The translations under genes and the position numbers were made by a program. Shown piece after piece: positions 14,326 through 30,971 of a DNA stretch of 30,971 nucleotides. The notes beneath the pieces were generated by a model. It searched no databases and was not told where the DNA came from. It saw only the letters and a list, made by a program, of their open reading frames with translations. Position 1 is the first letter of the stretch. Every line of letters begins with the position of its first letter. The stretch is from an uncultured Candidatus Melainabacteria bacterium (GTDB lineage Bacteria > Cyanobacteriota > Vampirovibrionia > Gastranaerophilales > Gastranaerophilaceae), in assembly GCA_934757245.1 (NCBI GenBank), contig CAKVLH010000017.1, positions 1 to 30,971 on the forward strand. The letters run 5' to 3'.

Positions 14326-17274
14326 TTATTTCGTGCCTTTTTTAAGAATAATACCGTTTAATTTACAGAAAGACGTTAGGATAGATAATTCTTCTCTGAT
14401 AAGCTTTTGCAAATGCGGATGTTCGGCTACAATACTCACATTCTTCGCCATTTGGAACATTTTTAATGATTGTTTAATATAATTCGCTCTCAACGTTGAC
14501 TTAGGTAACGCCAACTCTTGATAGAATTTTGCATACTGAATATAATCTTTAACCAAAATTGTAAGTAAGTTAAATTGTTTAGCTACAAAAATAGATTTTT
14601 CCAAATAAACTTTTGCTGAATCGAAATCCTGTTTTGCCATATAAATTTCGCCAATAAGTTTATTAAATAGTGCGATAAAATAATAATTATTAATATTTGG
14701 ACCTTGAGCAATATCTAAAGCCTTATTCGCAATATCAAGCGCAAATTGAGTTCCGCTAAGTACAAGTTTAATTTCTGCTATCAAATACCAACAAAGTAAA
14801 ACGCCTGTTGCAACTTTTTCTTTCGCAAAATAAGCAACCTGTTCTTCCAAAATTTCAAGCGCCTTTTTAGATTCATTCTTATCAGTCAGCATTTTAGCAA
14901 GCAACGTTTTTAAAATATTTTTCGTAAAGCTATCATTTACGTTGTTTGCATAAGCTACGACATTAAAGAGTTCTGTATACAAGCTGTCGTAATCTTTGGC
15001 AATAAATTTGTTTGCAATATCGATAAAATTCCATCTTGAAACTATAAATGCATCCATACTATCCAGCGAATATTCTTTCAAAATGTCGTCTAAGATTTTT
15101 TCGGAAGTTTTTAAATCGCCCTTAATAGTATTTGCCAAAGCTAAAGCTAAATGAGCCTTGCAAAGAATTGCCGGTTCTTTAATTTGATTACGTTCAATAA
15201 TATCAAAAATCAGTTTTGTTATTTCGAACATTCTGCCGTCGCCTTGGAAAGTCAAAGCTTCTGCAAAATCAAAATATACATCAATCCAAGTCAAATAAAG
15301 CTCTTTTACAGTAATAACTTGAGTATTGCGACCTTTTGCCAAATATTTTTCAAATACCGGCATGATTTCTGTATCAATCAAATTAATAACTTGCCCATAA
15401 TTACCAAGTTTTAACAACGGTTTAACTTGTCTTGATTTAACTAATGTTCGCTCTAACTCCATATTTTCAGGGAGTTTATTCAAAACGCTATCCGCACATT
15501 CAATTGCGCCCCAATAATTACCGCTCTTCATAGAAGATGATGCCAAATAACCAAGCAACTCAATATGAGTCAATTCTTCGTTATCTTCCAGCATCATAAC
15601 AGCGTTTTGCAAATATTCAAACGCTGTTTTATGGTCAATCGGTTCTAATAATTTGCCGACACGAGTATAAATATTTTTCTTAATCTTTTGATAGAAGTTA
15701 CCATGTTTGTTCTCAACAAGTTTCAAAGCCTGTTTTTGTGCAACAATATAAAGTCCGATATCACCAATATAAGAAGCTTGCTTCATAAGAAGTGTCCAAG
15801 TTGCAAGCGCTTGATCGTCATTGTTTAATTTCTGCACAATATAACCAAGAAGCGCAATTGAAGACTGTTTATAGATACTTAAGGTTTCATACAAAATATT
15901 CAAAATCTCATAGAAACAATCGTCATTTTTAACTACAGAAACAATATTTTTCCAAATTTCATTACTCTTAAACTCAAATGACAAGTTATTAATCTGATTT
16001 ATATATCCTCGTTGAACAAGATTTTCAATAATTCGCTCAAACTCTTTTTCTGAATTATTGTCAAAATGCTCAAGCATAGCCGGATAAAATTTCTTGCCCA
16101 AAACAGACATTGCAATAAGCATTCTATAAGACGGCAAATCTTCTTGTTTAAGAATTCCCAAACGCGCATCTAGGATTGATTCTATAGAGTTATACGTAAT
16201 ATGTTTTAATCCGTTTCTTCGAATATCTTTGTAAAGAAGCACCATTTGCTCAACTATAGATGGATTTCCGGCAGAAACCTTTAATGCAAGATTTATAAAA
16301 TCTTCTCCAATTTCAAGGTCGCTATATTGTTTAACAAGAATCTCAACTTGATTCTTTGTAAACGGAGCAATCGTTAAATCTATATAGTTATCTTCCGTAA
16401 GCTTAGAAGAAGTAATACACCCCATACCGGGTTTTGTGATTTTTGAAATTAAGATAAACTTACATCTTTCCAAGAAATAATCGTCTTTTAGAATTTCTTT
16501 TAAGAAATCAAAAGACATTCCGTCAATATTCTCGAAATCATCAATTACGAATACAGCCTTGATTTTTTCAATAATAGTCAACAAAACTTTTTTCATTATG
16601 TTGAACATTTTTGCTTTATTGAAATAAATGTTTTCGTATTTATCCAAATTCTCGGGATACAAAAAGTTTAACAAATCCAATATTTCGGAATTAGAAAGTG
16701 CCGGAAAATCTTGCTTGAAGAATTTTACAGAATTCTTTTTTAATTGCAAAGTATCGGGACAAAAATTGTTTACATTGAAAAATGTTAGCAACAAATCTTG
16801 AAAATATCCAAATGGAGAAAGTTGCGTTACTTGCGTACAAGTTCCCCAAAGCCATAAAAGTTTGGCATTTTTAAGCTCGTTTATCGTATATCTTAAAACT
16901 AAATCTTTTCCAATTCCGCTTTCACCGTTTAGAGTAATTATGGTTTTATCAGCGTCTTTAATCGCATCCAGAAGTCGTGCTTTAACTTTCTGCTGAGAAT
17001 TCATTTCCGCGTTGTATTCAGGCTTAGGATTGAATTTCTTTTGAGGAACAACAAATTCTACCCCGCATTTTCTGCAAGCCTTAGCATCCGGTAGATTGGC
17101 AGCACCACATTCTGTACAAATCTTTAATAAGACTTTATGACAATTTGAACATTCTTTTGCTGTTATTGGATTTATTGTCCCGCAATCTTTGCAGACAGAA
17201 GCAATCTTTGCTCCACAAAACTTGCATTTCAAAGAATTATCATCTATTTCTTTTTTACATTTGGGACATTGCAT
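14326..17274 (-). CDS. Zinc-ribbon STAND ATPase with C-terminal helical repeats
   Basis: A 982-residue protein. Residues 1-72 hold three evenly built zinc ribbons, each CxxC-x10-CxxC (C3/C6/C17/C20, C28/C31/C42/C45, C53/C56/C67/C70). An AAA/STAND ATPase follows, with Walker A GESGIGKD (117-124) and Walker B VFVIDD (241-246). The block QLSPFGYFQDLL is like the 'predicted ATPase' domains usually joined to bacterial adenylate cyclases or kinases. From about 480 on, the protein is made of TPR-like helical pairs (for example NYWGAIECADSVLNKLPEN and KQDFDSAKVYLEKSIFVA). No cyclase, kinase or DNA-binding output is present. STAND proteins are typically ligand-triggered switches, but the trigger here is unknown. 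It is last in an operon, 15 bases after an acidic protein. Confidence 0.85.
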   Translation of the reverse strand: MQCPKCKKEIDDNSLKCKFCGAKIASVCKDCGTINPITAKECSNCHKVLLKICTECGAANLPDAKACRKCGVEFVVPQKKFNPKPEYNAEMNSQQKVKARLLDAIKDADKTIITLNGESGIGKDLVLRYTINELKNAKLLWLWGTCTQVTQLSPFGYFQDLLLTFFNVNNFCPDTLQLKKNSVKFFKQDFPALSNSEILDLLNFLYPENLDKYENIYFNKAKMFNIMKKVLLTIIEKIKAVFVIDDFENIDGMSFDFLKEILKDDYFLERCKFILISKITKPGMGCITSSKLTEDNYIDLTIAPFTKNQVEILVKQYSDLEIGEDFINLALKVSAGNPSIVEQMVLLYKDIRRNGLKHITYNSIESILDARLGILKQEDLPSYRMLIAMSVLGKKFYPAMLEHFDNNSEKEFERIIENLVQRGYINQINNLSFEFKSNEIWKNIVSVVKNDDCFYEILNILYETLSIYKQSSIALLGYIVQKLNNDDQALATWTLLMKQASYIGDIGLYIVAQKQALKLVENKHGNFYQKIKKNIYTRVGKLLEPIDHKTAFEYLQNAVMMLEDNEELTHIELLGYLASSSMKSGNYWGAIECADSVLNKLPENMELERTLVKSRQVKPLLKLGNYGQVINLIDTEIMPVFEKYLAKGRNTQVITVKELYLTWIDVYFDFAEALTFQGDGRMFEITKLIFDIIERNQIKEPAILCKAHLALALANTIKGDLKTSEKILDDILKEYSLDSMDAFIVSRWNFIDIANKFIAKDYDSLYTELFNVVAYANNVNDSFTKNILKTLLAKMLTDKNESKKALEILEEQVAYFAKEKVATGVLLCWYLIAEIKLVLSGTQFALDIANKALDIAQGPNINNYYFIALFNKLIGEIYMAKQDFDSAKVYLEKSIFVAKQFNLLTILVKDYIQYAKFYQELALPKSTLRANYIKQSLKMFQMAKNVSIVAEHPHLQKLIREELSILTSFCKLNGIILKKGTK

Positions 17275-17289
17275 AATTTACAGTCCTTA

Positions 17290-18666
17290 TTATACAACAG
17301 CAATTATTTCATTCAAGGCTTCAACAACTTGCTCTTCATTCATGCTCAATTGAGTGGCAATTTCAGAAACCGAATTTTTATTTTTGTATTTTAAATCATA
17401 CACCTTCAAAATATTTAGCTCAGGATGCTTTGAGTCTAATTCTTCTATGTTTGCTTTGATTTCATCCACATCTACTTCTGCATTATTTTCTTGAGGAGTA
17501 AAGTCGAAAACTGAATAATCCATCGGTTTAAATTTGCCTGTTGGTTCATTATTTTCTTCAAGATTAGCTTCAAGAGTTGTTGTAATAGAATCAGCTATAT
17601 CATCAAGATTTTCGTCTAAAATACCCAATGGTTGTTCTTCGCTTAATTCATTTAACTCTAAACTTTCTTGAGGTTCTAATAAATCATCTTCTGCCAGTTC
17701 AGAAGTAGACAAATCTTCTGTAAGTTCTGTAAAATCTTCCACTTCAAGATCTTCAGACGCAACTTCTTCAACAGGTTCATTGGAAACATCTAATTGTTCT
17801 TCTGATAATTCTAACAAATCATCTTCTGTATCAATTGGGGCGAATTCTTCAAGTTCAGTTGTTTCCATTAAAGGTTCTTCATCTTGTAAAACATCCAATG
17901 TATCCGGCGTTTCTTGTTCTTCTGTTAAATTATCCGTTTCCGCAAGTTCTTCTGTAATTGGAGCATCTTCTTTTTCTTCTACAATGTCCTCTGCAACTTC
18001 TAAAACCGGCTCTGCTTGAACATCATTTAAATCCTCTAATTGTAGCTCATCATCTCCAAAATCGTTTGTTTCAAAAGTCAAATCTTCTGTAACAGGCGCG
18101 TCTTGTACTTCTAAATCATCTTGAACAGCCGGTTCAATCACTTCTTCTAAAACATTATCAGTTTCTGATTCAATATTTAATTCCTGCTCTAAGCTGTTAT
18201 CAACGGATTTTTCTACATCAAAGGTTTCGTTAATAGGTTCTATGTTTTCAAACTCAGTTTCTTCAACAGCTTCCGTAAGTTCTATTGGCTGTTCTTCAAC
18301 TGCAACTGTAGCAGGCATGCTGTTTATCATTTTATCAACCAAGTCATTGTTAACAACTTTTTTCACTTCTTTTGCAGGTTGAACTTGTTGTGCTTCCTGT
18401 AGTTTTGGTAGTTCCGGTGTTACAATTCTATGTTTAATTTCAGAGTGGAATCCCATTTTTTTAGGAACAGTAATGATTGATGTGGATACAACTTTTTCAA
18501 GATACGCTTGAATTACACTATCATTACTGATTGAATTTATAATAACTTCTGAATGTGCATAAACGTCATCAATAATATCATCCAAAATAGCTTCAAGTCC
18601 TTGAAACTTTTTGTGATTTCTTACTAAATTTTCAATAATGCCGTAGTATTTATTAGTCTTTTCCAT
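17290..18666 (-). CDS. Acidic disordered protein with folded ends
   Basis: A 458-residue protein of three parts. Residues 1-95 look helical and folded and include KKMGFHSEIKHRIVTPELP. The middle, about 110-370, is a low-complexity stretch dominated by Glu, Asp, Leu, Thr and Ser, with repeated phrases such as EELAETDNLTEEQ, DDLLELSEEQL and EDDLLEP, certainly disordered. The end, about 385-458, is folded again and finishes with NSVSEIATQLSMNEEQVVEA, which resembles the helix-turn-helix of sigma-factor region 4 or a small DNA/protein docking module. No signal peptide or membrane span is seen. It sits between a membrane-anchored acidic protein and the STAND ATPase, 22 and 15 bases apart. A scaffold or adaptor role fits; no family is recognised. 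Confidence 0.75.
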   Translation of the reverse strand: MEKTNKYYGIIENLVRNHKKFQGLEAILDDIIDDVYAHSEVIINSISNDSVIQAYLEKVVSTSIITVPKKMGFHSEIKHRIVTPELPKLQEAQQVQPAKEVKKVVNNDLVDKMINSMPATVAVEEQPIELTEAVEETEFENIEPINETFDVEKSVDNSLEQELNIESETDNVLEEVIEPAVQDDLEVQDAPVTEDLTFETNDFGDDELQLEDLNDVQAEPVLEVAEDIVEEKEDAPITEELAETDNLTEEQETPDTLDVLQDEEPLMETTELEEFAPIDTEDDLLELSEEQLDVSNEPVEEVASEDLEVEDFTELTEDLSTSELAEDDLLEPQESLELNELSEEQPLGILDENLDDIADSITTTLEANLEENNEPTGKFKPMDYSVFDFTPQENNAEVDVDEIKANIEELDSKHPELNILKVYDLKYKNKNSVSEIATQLSMNEEQVVEALNEIIAVV

Positions 18667-18688
18667 ATCACTCTCTTTTATTTATTAA

Positions 18689-20701
18689 TTATAAATGTAT
18701 TATTAAAACAGGATTGCCTTGCAATTTGCCGAACGAATCGAAATTAGTGCTCAAATTCATTGCAAGAGCCTTGTTAACAGTTTGTAAAATTAAATCATCA
18801 ACAGTTTTTTCACCGCTGGATTGTGTAATTCCTGTAGCTTCAAACTTCTTTGTTCCACTATTATATTGAATTTCAACTGTAATTTTATTTGATATTGGCG
18901 GTTTATTCAATAGTAATAATTCTGTCTTCAAATTCAATTGAATAATCTTACCAAGTTTTACCAAGTATCTTTTTGCAGATGTATTTGAAGCATATCCTGA
19001 CGGAACTTCCCAATCTACTTTCAAATTAGAAACAAGAATTGACGCATCTAAATTTTGTTCAATCGCCGGAATTGACTCAGATGTTCCTTCGTTTGTAGCA
19101 AGTTTTGGTGCTACATTTTCTACCGTTTCAACTGGCATAGCATCTTCTTGAGATTGAGCAGGTTGTTGTGCTGTTTGTTGTGCTGTTTGTTGAGTTTCGA
19201 CTGAATCTGTAACTAAATTTGTGTCATCTTCAGCCGGCTGTTGATTAGCAAACTGATTATAACCAAAATATCCAACAGCACCCAAAACTACCAACAAACC
19301 AACAATCGCTAACAATTTTATTGAACTCTTTTGCTTTTTAGGTGGTACAAAATCTACATTTTCATCAGCAAGGTCTTGTTCATCACTATTGAACAAAGTA
19401 TCAATTTGTTCTGTATTGTCAGTTGCTTCTTCTGTTGGCTCGATAACATCTTCTACCGAATTAGTTTCTTGAATTACTTGTTCCGGTTCTTCATCTAAAA
19501 CACCTTCCGTATCAACAACAACCTCTTCTTGTGGCTGAACTGTATCCTGTTCTTGAATTTCCTCTTCTTGTTTGGTTTCTACAATCTCGTTATTGATATC
19601 CAACGAATTGTCTTCATTCAATAAATCATCCAAATTATCGCCCATTGTATCAAGACTCGGAGTCGTTACAGTAGAAAATTCAAAACCTGATTCTTCTTCA
19701 TTATCTGACTGAATATCATCTATAATATCAAGTTCATCTACAGCAGATACATTGTCATCTTCTGCAATCAAAGAATCATTTTCACCAATTTCAGCACCCA
19801 ATTCAGAAAGTGTATCGGCTTCCAAATTTGTATCAGCAACTAAATCCGCTTGACCTTCAAAACTTAATTCATCCGCACCTTCTAATGGTGCAGTATCTAA
19901 CATATCAAAAGAATCATCCAAATTTACAGGTTCATCTAATAAAGAGTCGTTTTGCACGTTAGAATCTAATTCAAGCAAGTCATCTTCTTCAATCCCTGCA
20001 AAATCATCATTTGGCAAGTCAAGTTCTTGTTCATTTGATGTGTTTTCTTCTTCTCTAAACGAAATAAAATTAAATGCATACTGAGCCTTTACTGCTTTTG
20101 CGAATTTTAAACGACCATTTTCAGAAGCGATTAATTCTCCAATAAATGCACTTCTATTTTCAATCTTGCCATCTAAAAATGCAAAAATATCAGCTTCTTC
20201 TACAGCATAAGAATCCTCTTTTGTTACTAGCAATGGCTCTATATCGTAGAAAGAAACTAACTGTTCCTCTTTAATAGGATAATATCCGCCAATATCTTGT
20301 GTTGTATCGACATTTTCTGATGCAATAAAACCTGTTACAGTAGCATTGGATAAATCAGGCGTAATTCTTACAAACATGTAAGCAACTGGGAGTAAGTTAT
20401 TGTCAAAATGTGATTTTGGAACGCTTAATTCATCTTCATTAAAAAACAATCTTACATCTATATAAGAATTGTTTATATAAATATCCGAAATATCAAATTC
20501 ATCCAGAATTTGACCTATATTATGAAGCCCGGAAATATTATCTACTTTATAACTGTTTTTATCAAAAAACTTTTCTGCAATACTTGCACCAAAAGCGTTT
20601 GCAACAGCTCTGTTACGAGTATTTGCATCACTAATTAATTTGCATATATTCTGCGCAAACTCAATTTCTTTCTCTTCTATCAAAAAATTATCAGTATTCA
20701 C
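18689..20701 (-). CDS. Acidic membrane-anchored protein with TonB-like C-terminus
   Basis: A 670-residue protein beginning at GTG with GGGAGA upstream. Residues 1-215 form a folded cytoplasmic domain I do not recognise (IYINNSYIDVRLFFNEDEL, YMFVRITPDLSNATVTGFI). About 220-455 is an acidic disordered stretch similar in style to the middle of the next gene's product. KKQKSS then leads into one membrane helix (about 461-483), a QTAQQTAQQPAQ linker, and a C-terminal domain at about 560-670. That end, VEIQYNSGTKKFEATGITQSSGEKTVDDLILQ (written across about 608-640), has the strand-strand-helix spacing of TonB C-terminal domains. Topology would be N-inside and C-outside. It probably anchors a complex with the two downstream products; the TonB resemblance is weak. 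Confidence 0.75.
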   Translation of the reverse strand: MNTDNFLIEEKEIEFAQNICKLISDANTRNRAVANAFGASIAEKFFDKNSYKVDNISGLHNIGQILDEFDISDIYINNSYIDVRLFFNEDELSVPKSHFDNNLLPVAYMFVRITPDLSNATVTGFIASENVDTTQDIGGYYPIKEEQLVSFYDIEPLLVTKEDSYAVEEADIFAFLDGKIENRSAFIGELIASENGRLKFAKAVKAQYAFNFISFREEENTSNEQELDLPNDDFAGIEEDDLLELDSNVQNDSLLDEPVNLDDSFDMLDTAPLEGADELSFEGQADLVADTNLEADTLSELGAEIGENDSLIAEDDNVSAVDELDIIDDIQSDNEEESGFEFSTVTTPSLDTMGDNLDDLLNEDNSLDINNEIVETKQEEEIQEQDTVQPQEEVVVDTEGVLDEEPEQVIQETNSVEDVIEPTEEATDNTEQIDTLFNSDEQDLADENVDFVPPKKQKSSIKLLAIVGLLVVLGAVGYFGYNQFANQQPAEDDTNLVTDSVETQQTAQQTAQQPAQSQEDAMPVETVENVAPKLATNEGTSESIPAIEQNLDASILVSNLKVDWEVPSGYASNTSAKRYLVKLGKIIQLNLKTELLLLNKPPISNKITVEIQYNSGTKKFEATGITQSSGEKTVDDLILQTVNKALAMNLSTNFDSFGKLQGNPVLIIHL

Positions 20702-20837: not shown

Positions 20838-20864
20838 TAAAGTTTATTTTTTAATGTCCGACAT
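20838..20864 (+). promoter_or_regulatory. Sigma-28 (FliA-type) flagellar promoter
   Basis: TAAAGTTT (20838-20845), exactly 11 bases, then TCCGACAT (20857-20864). The enterobacterial sigma-28 consensus is TAAAGTTT-N11-GCCGATAA, so the -35 is perfect and the CCGA core of the -10 is present at the right distance. It lies 25 bases before the lytic transglycosylase ATG. A second site with the same layout is at 27836-27862. Confidence 0.7.
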
Positions 20865-20889: not shown

Positions 20890-21555
20890 ATGTTTTCATC
20901 AATGATTCAGAATTTATTATCATCATCCGGCAAATCAAGTGCTATGCAACGTGCCGTTCAGATGAACAATTATGTTAATAATTTTAACTCTCAATGGGCG
21001 CCTGTTGAAAAGCAAGCAAATGGAGTTCCAGAAACAAGCGCTAAAATTCAATCATTCGATAATGTACTTAAGAAATCTGCACAAGTTAAATTTGGCGACC
21101 TTTTAACTAATCCTTCAACCAGAGTTAACGCAAATATATATTCTGCAAAAGCAGAAACATCAACAGAAAAAATCTCAACACGAGAACAAATCAAAAATCT
21201 GGTTTCTAAGGTTTCCAAAAAGCACGGTGTTGACGAAAAATTAGTTAATGCATTAATTAAACAAGAATCCGGCTTTAATCCTAATGCAAAATCAAACGTT
21301 GGTGCAATGGGTTTAATGCAACTTATGCCTGCTACCGCAAAAGGTTTAGGTGTTACTAATGCAATGGATCCGGAGCAAAACGTAGAAGGTGGCGTAAAAT
21401 ATCTTAAATCAATGCTTAATAAATATAATGGCAATGTAATTTTAGCTTTAGCGGCTTATAATGCAGGCCCTGGGGCTGTTGATAAGTATGATGGAGTTCC
21501 ACCTTATAAAGAAACACAAAATTATGTTAAGTCCATTTTAGCAAATTATTTGTAA
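20890..21555 (+). CDS. Lytic transglycosylase (SLT domain), probably flagellum-associated
   Basis: Cleaves the glycan strand of peptidoglycan with formation of 1,6-anhydro-muramic acid. The 221-residue protein has a C-terminal Slt-type domain (about 100-221): catalytic E126 in KQESGFN, GLMQLMPATA (141-150) and AAYNAGPGAV (188-197). The first 95 residues are Ser/Asn/Gln-rich with no signal peptide, and contain SFDNVLKK (55-62). That phrase is like the short helix seen in flagellum-exported proteins such as FlgJ. It begins at the ATG at 20890 with AAAGGA upstream; an ATG five bases earlier is quickly closed. The sigma-28-type promoter supports a role in flagellar assembly or another late flagellar function. 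Export route is inferred. Confidence 0.88.
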   Translation: MFSSMIQNLLSSSGKSSAMQRAVQMNNYVNNFNSQWAPVEKQANGVPETSAKIQSFDNVLKKSAQVKFGDLLTNPSTRVNANIYSAKAETSTEKISTREQIKNLVSKVSKKHGVDEKLVNALIKQESGFNPNAKSNVGAMGLMQLMPATAKGLGVTNAMDPEQNVEGGVKYLKSMLNKYNGNVILALAAYNAGPGAVDKYDGVPPYKETQNYVKSILANYL

Positions 21556-24205: not shown

Positions 24206-25300
24206 ATGGCTTCAATCACTATTAACACAAACTTAGCCTCATTAACGGCTCAAAAGAACTTGTCAAATGCTACTACAGGCATGAACAAGGCAATGGAAAG
24301 ATTATCAACAGGTTACAAAATTAACTCAGGTGCTGACGACGCAGCAGGATCTGCTGTATCAACTTTAATGGAAGCGCAAATTTCAGGTTATGATGTAGCT
24401 GAATCAAACGCAACAATGGGTTTATCATTATTGGACACGGCGGAAGGTGTTTTGGATATCGTTGGTGATTATTTACAACGTATCAGAGATTTGACCGAAC
24501 AAGCAGCCAACGGTACTTATGGTACTTCTTCTATGAATGCTATTAAAACAGAAGTTCAACAAAGAATGGAAGAAATTAATCGTCTATGCACAGTTATCGA
24601 CTTTAACGGTATTAAACTTTTAGACGGTACAAGTGTTGCTGCAACATCAGGAAACGGTGTAAACTTACAAGTAAGTAATAATTCTGGTAAAAATAATATT
24701 ATCAACTTAGATTCTTCAATTTTTGAATCAACAACCATTACTGCATTATTTATGAGTGGTAATCCTAATAACAAACATAAAGGGGCTACTGATGGCGGAC
24801 AAAAATGGTATGAAAGAAGTGATGGAACTGATACGACAGCTTTAAAAGCAAGAATTGAAGGTGATAAAGAATATACATCAGCGGATGGTAGAAAGTATGA
24901 TTACACCGATGCTAGTTATTCAAAAATTAAAACTACAAAATACGATTGGGAAGACAATAGAAAAGCAAGTGTAAATATGAGCTGCTTAACTGCGATTTGT
25001 GATGCTGTTTATACAGATGATGCAACTGCTCGTGAGTTCTTATCATTCGTTGATGATGCAATCGAAAATGTATCTGCAAGAACAGCTCTAATCGGTGCGT
25101 ACATGAACAGAGTTGAATCAGCTGTTGATGCGATAAGTGTACAGAAGGAGAATATTGTATCTGCTAACTCTTCAATCAAGGATGCAGACGTTGCAACGGA
25201 ATCTTCTAATTACATTAAGTATCAAATCTTGCAACAATCAACTGCGACATTACTTGCGACTGCTAACCAAACTCCAAGTATTGCATTAAATTTAATATAA
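24206..25300 (+). CDS. fliC: Flagellin
   Basis: Filament subunit exported through the flagellar type III apparatus. The start is the ATG at 24206 with AAGGAGAT; the frame runs 21 codons further upstream but that part is leader. The 364-residue protein has the standard N-terminal D0/D1 helix (MASITINTNLASLTAQ ... RLSTGYKINSGADDAAG) and the C-terminal D1/D0 (DADVATESSNYIKYQ ... NQTPSIALNLI). A variable, polar middle (about 175-275) is rich in Lys, Asp, Tyr and Gly. The TLR5-contact residues of D1 are kept (LQRIRDLTEQA and the Glu in RMEEINR). Three cysteines occur, in INRLC and MSCLTAIC, unusual for a flagellin. A strong terminator follows, so it is monocistronic. Confidence 0.97.
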   Translation: MASITINTNLASLTAQKNLSNATTGMNKAMERLSTGYKINSGADDAAGSAVSTLMEAQISGYDVAESNATMGLSLLDTAEGVLDIVGDYLQRIRDLTEQAANGTYGTSSMNAIKTEVQQRMEEINRLCTVIDFNGIKLLDGTSVAATSGNGVNLQVSNNSGKNNIINLDSSIFESTTITALFMSGNPNNKHKGATDGGQKWYERSDGTDTTALKARIEGDKEYTSADGRKYDYTDASYSKIKTTKYDWEDNRKASVNMSCLTAICDAVYTDDATAREFLSFVDDAIENVSARTALIGAYMNRVESAVDAISVQKENIVSANSSIKDADVATESSNYIKYQILQQSTATLLATANQTPSIALNLI

Positions 25301-27835: not shown

Positions 27836-27862
27836 TAAAGTTTTTTTCAAATGTGCCGTTAA
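27836..27862 (+). promoter_or_regulatory. Sigma-28 (FliA-type) flagellar promoter
   Basis: TAAAGTTT (27836-27843), exactly 11 bases, then GCCGTTAA (27855-27862). Against TAAAGTTT-N11-GCCGATAA it is mismatched at one base of sixteen with perfect spacing. It lies 29 bases before the ATG of the EF-hand giant gene, which also has a GGAAGGA ribosome site. Confidence 0.8.
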
Positions 27863-27891
27863 TATACATGTACGGAAGGAAATAAAGTAAG

Positions 27892-30800
27892 ATGGGCTTC
27901 GGCGATTACAATATACAACAAGGCAATGGACGCAAGGAAAAGCTTGGCGATATAAAGCAGGGTATTCGCCGAGAACAAATTGATGCAAAATTGCAGAATT
28001 TATTTGATACTTATGATGATAACAAGGATGGTTGTCTTGAAAAATCTGAACTTGATACCATCTTTCAACATTTAGCCGATTTTGCCGGAGAAGACAAAAC
28101 TCTTGATTCTGTTGAAAACGGACAAATCAATTCTCAATTTAAAGAAAAAATGAATATTGAGAATGCGGATTTTATGGGTTTTGTAAAATCTGTTTCAGAC
28201 GCATCAGCTGATATTATTGAAACTAAAGAGAAACAAACTCCTGATGGCGGGAAAGAAGTAACTACAACGTATAATGACGGAACAACCGAAACAATTGCAT
28301 TTTACAGCAATGGCGATTACAAATGGAAGAAAACAGAAAAAAGAACTTTAGAAACAAGTTTTGAATTAATCATTGACGGTAAAAAACACAAATTCAATGA
28401 TGAAGCTAAATTCAAAAAAGCGTTAGAAAAAGCAGAACAAAAAAATATATCTAATGCTATGCAAAATGCACAAAACAAACAAAAAGCCAGTCAATCAACA
28501 GATGGAATAAGCAAGTATATCCAATTGCCAGTTTCTAAAGTACATACAAACACTTATTCCAAAGAAAATATTGACAGAAAAGAATCATACTCCCCTCGTT
28601 TTATTGCGGAAACTCTTGGTGTAAATATAGCAACAGAAGACGGGAAAAAGGTTGTGGAAAGATTATCATACTTACCACAAGAGGCTTTGAAAAAACTTAA
28701 AGACGGCCAAGAACTTAAAGAACTTATTTCTTCACAAGAACTTGAACCGACTTTTGACAATATTTCTAACATTTTAGAAATCACAGAAGGTGTTACATTA
28801 AGAACTGAAGAAGAATACAAAGCAACTGAAGTTCAAAGACAAGAAATTTTGACACAAATAAAAGCTGCTAACTTTATGGCTAATGTGTATGAAACTCTTG
28901 CAAGCTATAACGACCAATACACTGATAGTGTAGGCTTGTTTGGTTTGGGTTCTGAAGGTATCGGATATGTTTTAAATAAACTCGGTTTAGACGGTGAAAA
29001 CCATTATCAATTTGCTGATTCTTGCAGAGAATGGGCAAAAAATGCAAGTGAATTAAAAGTTTTGAATCCTCAAAAATTCAAAGAAGGATTTAAAAAGATT
29101 TATGGCAAAACTGCTGATAAATATGGAATTGACTACAATTCTGATGCGTTTAAAAAATGTTTTGCTCTGGCTGAAAGCGGAAAAGCTTTTGACAAAGACA
29201 ATAAAATGACTGACGAATACAAAGAAGCAATTCTTAAAGCAATGAATATTGTCGCTGACGACCCGAATGACAGTACATTTAACCAAGTTATGAATAGTTT
29301 TGGCGAAGCCTTAATTATGATAGCAACATTGGGTTGGGGAGCTGAAACAAAAGCAGGAGCTACACTTGCAACTACAACAATGAGTACATTCTCTAAAGCA
29401 GGTGTTGCAATCGCATCAAAACAAGTAAACAACAAACTACTTCAAGGTGCTTTGAGATTTTCAGGTCAAGCCGTTAAACTCGTTGGTCCTGCATTAAATG
29501 AAGGTACCAAAATGTATCTTTATACTGCTGCAGAAGGAACTTTGACGAATGTATCAAACAGAGCAATTAAACAAGACGGATTCGACAAACTTCTTGATAC
29601 GCAAGCACAAGTAATGACAAATGCTAACGGCTCGTTTACTTTTGGTGCGTTTGCAGGTGTATTTGGTTCTACTGTTACTCAAAAAGTTATGCAACGAGCA
29701 TCTAAAGTCGCTTCTAAAGTAACAACTGCATTGAGTGAAAAATTCTCTCAAGGTGCAGTTAGTGCGAATGAAGTATTTACAACTATCTTAGAAAAATCTG
29801 CACCTACTAAGATTGCAGAAGTAGCAGCTTTCGCAACCGATGTTATTGGTTTTACAGCTTTTGAATCTGCTTTATCTATTGCAAATACTTTGCAAAGAGA
29901 AGGTTCTTTGACTCCTGAAAAACTTGTAAATACTTTGATGGAAGAATTCGGACATCAAGGTTACAGCTTAGGACAAATCAAAGTTATTTCACATTTAATC
30001 ATGATGTTGACAGGTTCAAGAAGTGCAAGAATGCAATCACAAAAATATTTGCAAGAAAACTTGCCACAACTCAAAGGAGCAACTCTAGATTGGGTAAATG
30101 GAGGCAAAGATGGTTTTAAAATCAACCTTCCTGACGGCAGAAGAATTGAATGCAAAAACGCATCAGAAATGATATCTTCACTTCAATTAATGGTACGTGA
30201 TGAAACTGCATTTAGTGGTAAGTTTGATAAATTAAATGCTGCAAAGGGTGAAGGTTCAAAAAATGATACTTCAACGAAAACAGAAGCTTCCCCAAAACCA
30301 ACCTCCCCTCAAGTTGCTCCACAAGATAAGGAAGTACAGGGGGTGAGAGCAGAAAAGTCTGGCAAAAAGGCATATGAAAAACCTGAAATAGCTGATATCG
30401 AGGATGTTTTACCAGCAGATATCGCACAATATCTAAAATCTGTTGCTAAAAATTCAATATTAAAGAAAGCTGGTATTACTTCGGATGTTGCAGATAAAAT
30501 GAGAATTGAAACGTTAGGTACTTATGGCTCATTATTACCAAGTACATTGAAAATGATTGAACATTTTGAAAACAAATTGGCAAAAGGTGAAAAAATCACA
30601 CCTGATGATATCTATAATGCTATTCAAAAATTTGATAGTTATTGGGCAGAAGGTGGTTATGGAGATAAATTTCAAAATTTACAACGTGATTTAATTTCTA
30701 AATACTGGAAAAATGCCGATAAAGATTTTGCAGATAAATTCAATATTGCTATGACAAGAACTCCTGAAATAATGGAATTCAGAACAGGTGTTGCACAAAA

Positions 30801-30971
30801 TTCAGCCTTAAAAAACGGTGGCATAACTCCAGATATTGCTACTCAAATGTTACGTGAAACATCAAGTACTTATGGCTCATTATTACCAAGCACTTTGAAA
30901 ATGATTGAACATTTTGAAAACAAATTGGCAAAAGGTGAAAAAATCACACCTGATGATATCTATAATGCTAT
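27892..30971 (+). CDS. Giant EF-hand repeat protein, 3' end beyond window
   Basis: Open from the ATG at 27892 (GGAAGGA upstream) to the end of the window, at least 1026 codons without a stop. There is no Sec signal peptide. A canonical EF-hand calcium loop occupies residues 42-53 (D42, N44, D46, G47, L49, E53). Residues about 60-460 are charged and helical. Residues about 467-665 contain three weakly hydrophobic Gly/Ala-rich segments (GEALIMIATLGWGAE, GSFTFGAFAGVFGS, IAEVAAFATDVIGF) that could insert into membranes. A Pro/Gln/Ser linker (about 798-823) leads to tandem repeats of 116 residues beginning at 851 and 967. No enzymatic domain is recognised. The sigma-28-type promoter and missing signal peptide suggest flagellum-linked expression and perhaps export. 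It may be a surface adhesin or effector; both are guesses. Confidence 0.88.
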   Translation, partial: MGFGDYNIQQGNGRKEKLGDIKQGIRREQIDAKLQNLFDTYDDNKDGCLEKSELDTIFQHLADFAGEDKTLDSVENGQINSQFKEKMNIENADFMGFVKSVSDASADIIETKEKQTPDGGKEVTTTYNDGTTETIAFYSNGDYKWKKTEKRTLETSFELIIDGKKHKFNDEAKFKKALEKAEQKNISNAMQNAQNKQKASQSTDGISKYIQLPVSKVHTNTYSKENIDRKESYSPRFIAETLGVNIATEDGKKVVERLSYLPQEALKKLKDGQELKELISSQELEPTFDNISNILEITEGVTLRTEEEYKATEVQRQEILTQIKAANFMANVYETLASYNDQYTDSVGLFGLGSEGIGYVLNKLGLDGENHYQFADSCREWAKNASELKVLNPQKFKEGFKKIYGKTADKYGIDYNSDAFKKCFALAESGKAFDKDNKMTDEYKEAILKAMNIVADDPNDSTFNQVMNSFGEALIMIATLGWGAETKAGATLATTTMSTFSKAGVAIASKQVNNKLLQGALRFSGQAVKLVGPALNEGTKMYLYTAAEGTLTNVSNRAIKQDGFDKLLDTQAQVMTNANGSFTFGAFAGVFGSTVTQKVMQRASKVASKVTTALSEKFSQGAVSANEVFTTILEKSAPTKIAEVAAFATDVIGFTAFESALSIANTLQREGSLTPEKLVNTLMEEFGHQGYSLGQIKVISHLIMMLTGSRSARMQSQKYLQENLPQLKGATLDWVNGGKDGFKINLPDGRRIECKNASEMISSLQLMVRDETAFSGKFDKLNAAKGEGSKNDTSTKTEASPKPTSPQVAPQDKEVQGVRAEKSGKKAYEKPEIADIEDVLPADIAQYLKSVAKNSILKKAGITSDVADKMRIETLGTYGSLLPSTLKMIEHFENKLAKGEKITPDDIYNAIQKFDSYWAEGGYGDKFQNLQRDLISKYWKNADKDFADKFNIAMTRTPEIMEFRTGVAQNSALKNGGITPDIATQMLRETSSTYGSLLPSTLKMIEHFENKLAKGEKITPDDIYNA
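30442..30971 (+). repeat. 348-base in-frame tandem repeat
   Basis: Copy one is 30442-30789; copy two starts at 30790 and is cut by the window end. The unit is 348 bases (116 codons). From 30520 and 30868 onward the copies match over 104 bases with only two differences, while the first 78 bases of each unit are clearly diverged but still alignable (VAKNSILKKAGIT against VAQNSALKNGGIT). The repeat probably continues past the window. Confidence 0.9.

Follow-up and report, generated by a model that had tools for sequence, protein, structure and literature searches.

Why would a giant gene of an uncultured Candidatus Melainabacteria bacterium lie behind what looks like a promoter of the flagellar sigma factor sigma-28 (FliA)? 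The gene runs off the end of the stretch of DNA analysed here (30,971 nt of contig CAKVLH010000017.1, hereafter the window), and the site lies just upstream of its start. We think it rather probable that this site is a sigma-28 promoter for a giant modular secreted effector, the export of which would probably be by a type III secretion system (T3SS) of the flagellar type. The grounds for this reading are the site itself, its conservation, the presence of FliA in relatives, the content of the regulon, the modularity of the proteins, and the existence of a second set of export genes. They come from sequence data on one lineage, known from metagenome-derived genomes.

On the forward strand, a -35 box TAAAGTTT (27836-27843), an 11-base spacer TTTTCAAATGT, and a -10 box GCCGTTAA (27855-27862) match 15 of the 16 positions of the enterobacterial FliA consensus, TAAAGTTT-N11-GCCGATAA, with its spacing of 11. 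The ATG of the giant gene follows 29 bases downstream. Match, spacing, and distance to the ATG had all been claimed in an initial annotation made from the letters of the window, and all are borne out on the sequence. The site has the top score in the whole window. When windows were generated with a Markov model, one out of 60 contained a site of at least 15/16 (spacing 11-12, both strands), a figure that a pre-filter makes a slight underestimate. Sites with up to three mismatches are another matter: there are two in the window against 0.86 expected, and 23 out of 100 shuffles also reach two, so that a 13/16 site alone means little.

Comparison with related genes is more telling. The N-terminal part of the giant protein (the head) is found in other genes, and we gathered the clear cases from 12 loci, identified in one scan of genome contigs and one of viral contigs, to which we added the window gene and a gene in genome G083. 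A site of 14-16/16 is present at most 180 nt upstream in 12 of the first 13 genes (window included), the distance to the start being between 28 and 135 bases. Locus L011 has no such site in its 180-nt upstream stretch, and the best site of the fourteenth gene (G083) scores 13/16; the total is thus 12 of 14 clear heads. None of 246 background open reading frames (ORFs), taken from the head loci, from the window, and from elsewhere in these genomes, reaches 14/16, and two reach 13/16, one being the transglycosylase gene of the window; this background takes in operon-internal ORFs and is hence unmatched to promoter-bearing genes. A separate check over 300 nt concerned more distant heads, i.e., the 34 weak head matches that have a locus. 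Twelve of them are preceded by a site of at least 14/16 and 20 by one of at least 13/16, the other 14 scoring below 13, while in the corresponding background 0/244 reach 14 and 3/244 reach 13. Finally, spacers vary between head genes while the -35 and -10 boxes stay the same, which argues for a promoter under selection. From this comparison of upstream regions, sigma-28 control of the window gene is well supported. One of the head genes (L012) sits on an IMG/VR contig, and such genes may spread with mobile elements.

The sigma factor itself is present in the relatives of the window organism. FliA_WhiG (TIGR02479) is above the curated cut-off in all nine genomes that hold head loci and in 140 of 146 genomes sampled from the family of one of these, G002. 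Against solved chains, the FliA of G006 matches 6pfv (E 4.8e-56), a chain labelled simply as an RNA polymerase sigma factor, and the FliA chain 6pmi (E 1.6e-47); its match to SigA (E 6.4e-20) is far weaker than those to sigma-28-type chains. A scan of the nine genomes with a strict pattern (TAAAGTTT-N11/12-NCCGWTA) revealed 124 sites, against six matches of the same motif reversed. They amount to 41 in G002, 33 in G001, 15 in G006, 13 in G005, and 2 to 7 in each of the other five, among which G004 has no more sites than the control (2 versus 2). In eight close kin of the window organism there were 104 sites against one reversed match. These kin are from the nine best DNA matches of metK among 288 genomes (best 84% identity), the remaining one of which, G001 (seventh in rank), was part of the first scan, and we read the genes downstream of the sites in three of the eight (G284, G067, and G032). 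The initial annotation had set such a scan as its test for random scatter, and the sites in these relatives are not random.

To describe the predicted regulon we used 123 of the 124 sites, leaving out the one in G004 that precedes L006. An ORF lies at most 200 nt downstream of 118 of them, in 107 cases with a recognisable ribosome binding site. When the genes behind the sites were grouped by single-linkage BLAST, a family that we call AASQAR was found behind 15 sites in five genomes, the head family behind eight sites in five genomes, and GAF-HD proteins behind five sites in five genomes; several small unknown proteins common to different genomes were also repeatedly found there. In six genomes (L085, L142, L145, L168, L249, and L266) a sigma-28 site precedes the gene for a conserved protein of 51-52 aa, which occurs both with flagellin (G002, G032) and without it (G006). 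We then annotated 107 downstream proteins from 11 genomes (100 aa or longer, each distinct start counted once, sequences truncated to 300 aa). Among the 25 families listed out of 36, EF-hand is the most frequent Pfam group (EF-hand_6, 12 members), and the flagellar members are two FliD (in G001 and G002) and one flagellin (in G002). A random set of 107 ORFs out of 254 background ones showed no EF-hand family among the 25 families listed out of 207, each with at least two members. The EF-hand loop pattern itself is present in 9 of 84 downstream proteins, four of which are encoded by head genes, versus 3 of 284 in the background. The flagellins are seldom preceded by good sites: a strict site is present at one of the six in G002, the upstream regions of those of G032 reach 10-12/16 (six of seven scored), and that of the window has no good site either. 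Given that flagellar targets are few and that FliA is kept in genomes without flagellin (see below), sigma-28 is here, as judged from its predicted sites, the regulator of a largely non-flagellar regulon. The initial annotation had put the giant gene under flagellar late-class control, of which the sigma-28 part stands, by virtue of the conservation, and the flagellar late-class part holds at most to some extent; the enrichment before flagellar genes that it called for comes down to one flagellin and two FliD among the 107 proteins. The AASQAR protein has a predicted layout that is flagellin-like, and the best Foldseek E for its model was 2.4e-3. A search of its sequence against the PDB gave a single match, to a ribosomal protein (E 0.59), and the fold likeness of the model to axial proteins is suggestive only.

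If FliA serves genes other than those of the flagellum, is there another machine for it to serve? We searched 50 genomes of the family for flagellin (PF00669, E <= 1e-15) and found it in 21; FliA is present in all 29 genomes without a match. FlhA (PF00771, E <= 1e-80) splits into two score classes. The class of 851-885 bits is found in 21 genomes, which are exactly those with flagellin. The second class, of 708-736 bits, is found in 46 of the 50 genomes, including 27 of the 29 flagellin-less and 19 of the 21 flagellin-bearing ones. In G006 and G002, the second flhA stands with homologues of fliE, fliF, and fliH, and behind them in G006, whose fliP is in a separate cluster with a Bac_export_1 (fliR-type) gene, a FliMN_C gene, and a gene that by eye is fliQ-like; homologues of FlhA, FliP, FliF, FliE, and FliH are thus all present in a genome without a flagellin match. 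Among solved chains the second FlhA is closest to flagellar FlhA, the injectisome chain 7alw being somewhat weaker, and its companions include FliE and a FliF that has retained the flagellar C-terminal domain. Single absences in these counts are weak, because the completeness of the genomes is not stated. The distribution of these genes suggests that at least some of those retained make up a separate set, known from its export-core genes, which is found alongside the flagellar FlhA in the 19 genomes just mentioned. Two further genes were seen in these searches. A conserved protein of ~490 aa (L193:4494-5966, L192:8225-9688) matches only the C-terminal half of FlhA, at ~154-163 bits, in nine of nine genomes. 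A gene for a very long protein (2167 aa in G002; L190:2634-9134 and L188:18303-20000 with L189:1-2946), coiled-coil by eye, is on the same strand as the second flhA operon and no more than ~10 kb from it in both G002 and G006.

These data bear on a simpler account, in which the window gene is a plain flagellar late gene whose product is made with, and exported by, the ordinary flagellum, the second set being irrelevant. The flagellin gene in the window indicates that the organism is probably flagellated, and there are precedents both for non-flagellar proteins that depend on sigma-28 and are made together with flagella and for others that leave the cell through the flagellum (PMC9856085). Yet the G006 head gene (L008) has a sigma-28 site in a genome where we found no flagellin at E <= 1e-15 and whose only full-length FlhA is of the second class, and good sites are missing before the flagellins of the window, of G032, and five of the six of G002. 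We therefore regard this account as unlikely.

The proteins themselves speak for secretion by their architecture. The closest relative of the window protein, P0001 (1640 aa), is 95% identical to it over 1019 aa, and a protein search found 33 relatives in total, of which P0029 is from Candidatus Gastranaerophilales. The head of P0022 is 89% identical to that of the window protein and its middle only 33%. L290 and L291 (from G083 and G284) have in common a tail of ~1,565 residues (75% identical), but there is no alignment at E 1e-8 between their heads or their middles. Fifteen giant members from relatives were read whole, and they range from 1511 to 4320 aa. The family is modular: behind an EF-hand-like head that is conserved come a middle modelled as mostly helical and exchanged tails. 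As to the EF-hand label of the initial annotation, the loop DDNKDGCLEKSE is present and fits the consensus, and its best match in Pfam (E 8.7e-4) falls short of the curated cut-off. The model of aa 1-800 is of low confidence, has no Foldseek match at E <= 0.001, and supports no conclusion, and a PDB search with the sequence of P0001 gave weak matches only, the best (E 0.15) to EF-hand proteins. The window gene is seen up to aa 1026 only, and tail domains are those of relatives such as P0001; the ~70-residue repeat at the start of the tail continues past the window end. Tails of relatives include HD, calpain-like peptidase, zeta toxin, PRTase-CE, GNAT, and FHA domains, several below curated cut-offs, and one tail scan gave no domain match in four of six tails. 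The tail of P0001 is 40% identical over 329 aa to that of L289, whose own match to RelA_SpoT (E 2.5e-4) stays under the curated cut-off; an HExxH stretch also occurs in P0001. A RelA domain in P0001 itself finds no support in Pfam, which gives no family at 1e-3, and the likeness comes from homology to the L289 tail. A conserved N-terminal part followed by exchanged enzymatic tails is the layout of polymorphic toxins and effectors, and the family shows this layout. Of the nine nearest kin, eight lack a clear head gene, which makes the window gene accessory. A phage origin was discarded, the gene having no match in 50,697 phage records.

None of the giants that were read shows a hydrophobic N-terminal signal of the Sec type; 14 of the 15 have one 19-residue weakly hydrophobic segment each, which neither the window protein nor P0001 has. 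Another possibility is that the promoter is real but its product is kept in the cell, where it would respond to calcium or act in development. Such enzymatic tails as zeta toxin, calpain-like, and HD swapped on conserved heads, a layout known from exported polymorphic toxins and effectors, and a size that reaches 4,320 aa make this improbable, even if no export signal is recognisable in these giants and Chlamydia offers a parallel, its sigma-28 targets hctB and tsp being both non-flagellar (PMC10597470). A chance match in AT-rich DNA with no promoter function is strongly disfavoured and, in our opinion, scarcely credible: two sites with up to three mismatches in one window are not unusual, as the shuffles show, but the conservation at 12 of 14 clear and 12 of 34 distant heads against 0/246 and 0/244 in the background, the changing spacers between constant boxes, and the genome-wide excess over reversed motifs all speak against it.

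How might a secreted effector under sigma-28 control work? In this lineage, FliA would be the late-gene sigma factor of the second machine plus a few flagellar genes, and it would transcribe the window gene from the site described here once the export apparatus is built; the timing, as well as the target of the effector, is what we infer. The flagellum is a possible export route, and the second FlhA/FliP/FliF/FliE/FliH set the more likely one. Calcium-driven folding outside the cell has a precedent in RTX proteins. The head of the window protein may similarly stay loose inside the cell, bind calcium outside, and fold there. Its tail would then be an interchangeable enzymatic module with toxic or other effector action, which in P0001 might be RelA/SpoT-like, by homology, with an HExxH stretch besides. 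We put forward, more tentatively, a broader proposal that we hold to be a little less likely than not: gut Gastranaerophilales have a second flagellum-derived type III machine; FliA switches on its late genes, those for filament-like axial proteins (AASQAR) and for giant polymorphic effectors that bind calcium; the incomplete flagellar gene sets of non-motile members are this machine and not the result of decay; and the window gene encodes one of its effectors.

Each component resembles something in known systems and differs from it in other respects. First, the FliA regulons of flagellated bacteria agree with this one in their -35 and -10 boxes, in the spacing between these, and in the family of the sigma factor, and FliD and one flagellin are targets here too; in contrast, the targets here are mostly non-flagellar, most flagellins checked lack good sites, and the regulon is kept without flagellin. 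Second, polymorphic toxin systems also combine a conserved N-terminal part with swapped C-terminal toxin-like domains, a likeness of layout, and we know of none with an EF-hand head. Third, non-flagellar T3SS have a flagellum-homologous export core without flagellin, a comparison made here by export-core genes, whereas here the FlhA of the second class has its best matches among flagellar FlhA chains and keeps company with FliE and a FliF with the flagellar C-terminal domain. Fourth, in Campylobacter sigma-28 also controls genes that are not flagellar (Feds), and the flagellum exports proteins that are not part of it (Cia; PMC9856085); unlike these, the proteins here are giant, modular, and EF-hand-headed, and come with a second set of export genes. 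Fifth, Chlamydia is non-flagellated yet keeps sigma-28 and flagellar-type export homologues, FlhA and FliI among them, but its regulon is given as two genes (hctB and tsp; PMC10597470), to be compared with 2 to 41 strict sites per genome here.

Among the titles and abstract openings listed on flagella or type III secretion in Gastranaerophilales and Melainabacteria and on non-flagellar FliA, subscription papers and preprints apart, none describes such a system, and no papers were found for Vampirovibrio with EF-hand or for Gastranaerophilales with sigma factor. These gut relatives of Cyanobacteria have so far been described as flagellated or as having lost flagella: some Gastranaerophilales have complete flagella, and the incomplete gene sets of others have been read as loss or reduction (PMC3787301, PMC4040986, PMC5877343). 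If FliA and the second set do act for giant modular effectors, then these published partial sets need another explanation. Sites like that of the window precede, in relatives, giant mix-and-match proteins that resemble exported effectors, even where no flagellin was found. This would provide a testable case of a sigma factor that keeps its job after the loss of the filament it served. If FliA and the second export set do serve giant effectors, then the promoter motif alone could read out the effector repertoire of each genome.

Table 1. Features of the window discussed in the text.
Feature	Position	Strand	Remarks
Sigma-28 (FliA-type) promoter, putative	27836..27862	+	15/16 to consensus; 14-16/16 kept at 12/14 head genes
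Probable ribosome binding site GGAAGG	27874..27879	+	12 bases 5' of ATG; from sequence
Giant modular protein gene	27892..30971	+	runs off window end, first 1026 aa visible; relative P0001
Conserved N-terminal head, aa 1-150	27892..28341	+	common to members whose middles and tails differ
EF-hand-like loop, aa 42-53	28015..28050	+	DDNKDGCLEKSE
Middle type A, aa 216-780	28537..30231	+	mostly helical in low-confidence model; swapped or distant in P0022-P0033
Internal repeat at tail start, aa 843-910 and aa 959-1026	30418..30969	+	cross-matches with P0001 at 48% and 74% identity
Flagellin gene	24206..25300	+	best upstream sigma-28 match 11/16, no good site
Second sigma-28-like site, TAAAGTTT-N11-TCCGACAT	20838..20864	+	13/16; 25 bases before transglycosylase ATG
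SLT-domain transglycosylase gene (221 aa)	20890..21555	+	PF01464, E 2.9e-34

Some observations concern the rest of the window. The flagellin gene is its only recognised flagellar gene. The SLT transglycosylase gene, behind the 13/16 site, may be another regulon member within the window. On the minus strand, positions 14326-20701 encode a zinc ribbon/AAA/TPR protein and two acidic proteins that are homologous to genes of G006 (L230:2-5821), with identities of 36%, 31%, and 34% over 664, 64, and 151 residues, respectively, and their order and orientation are those seen near the FliP cluster of G006.
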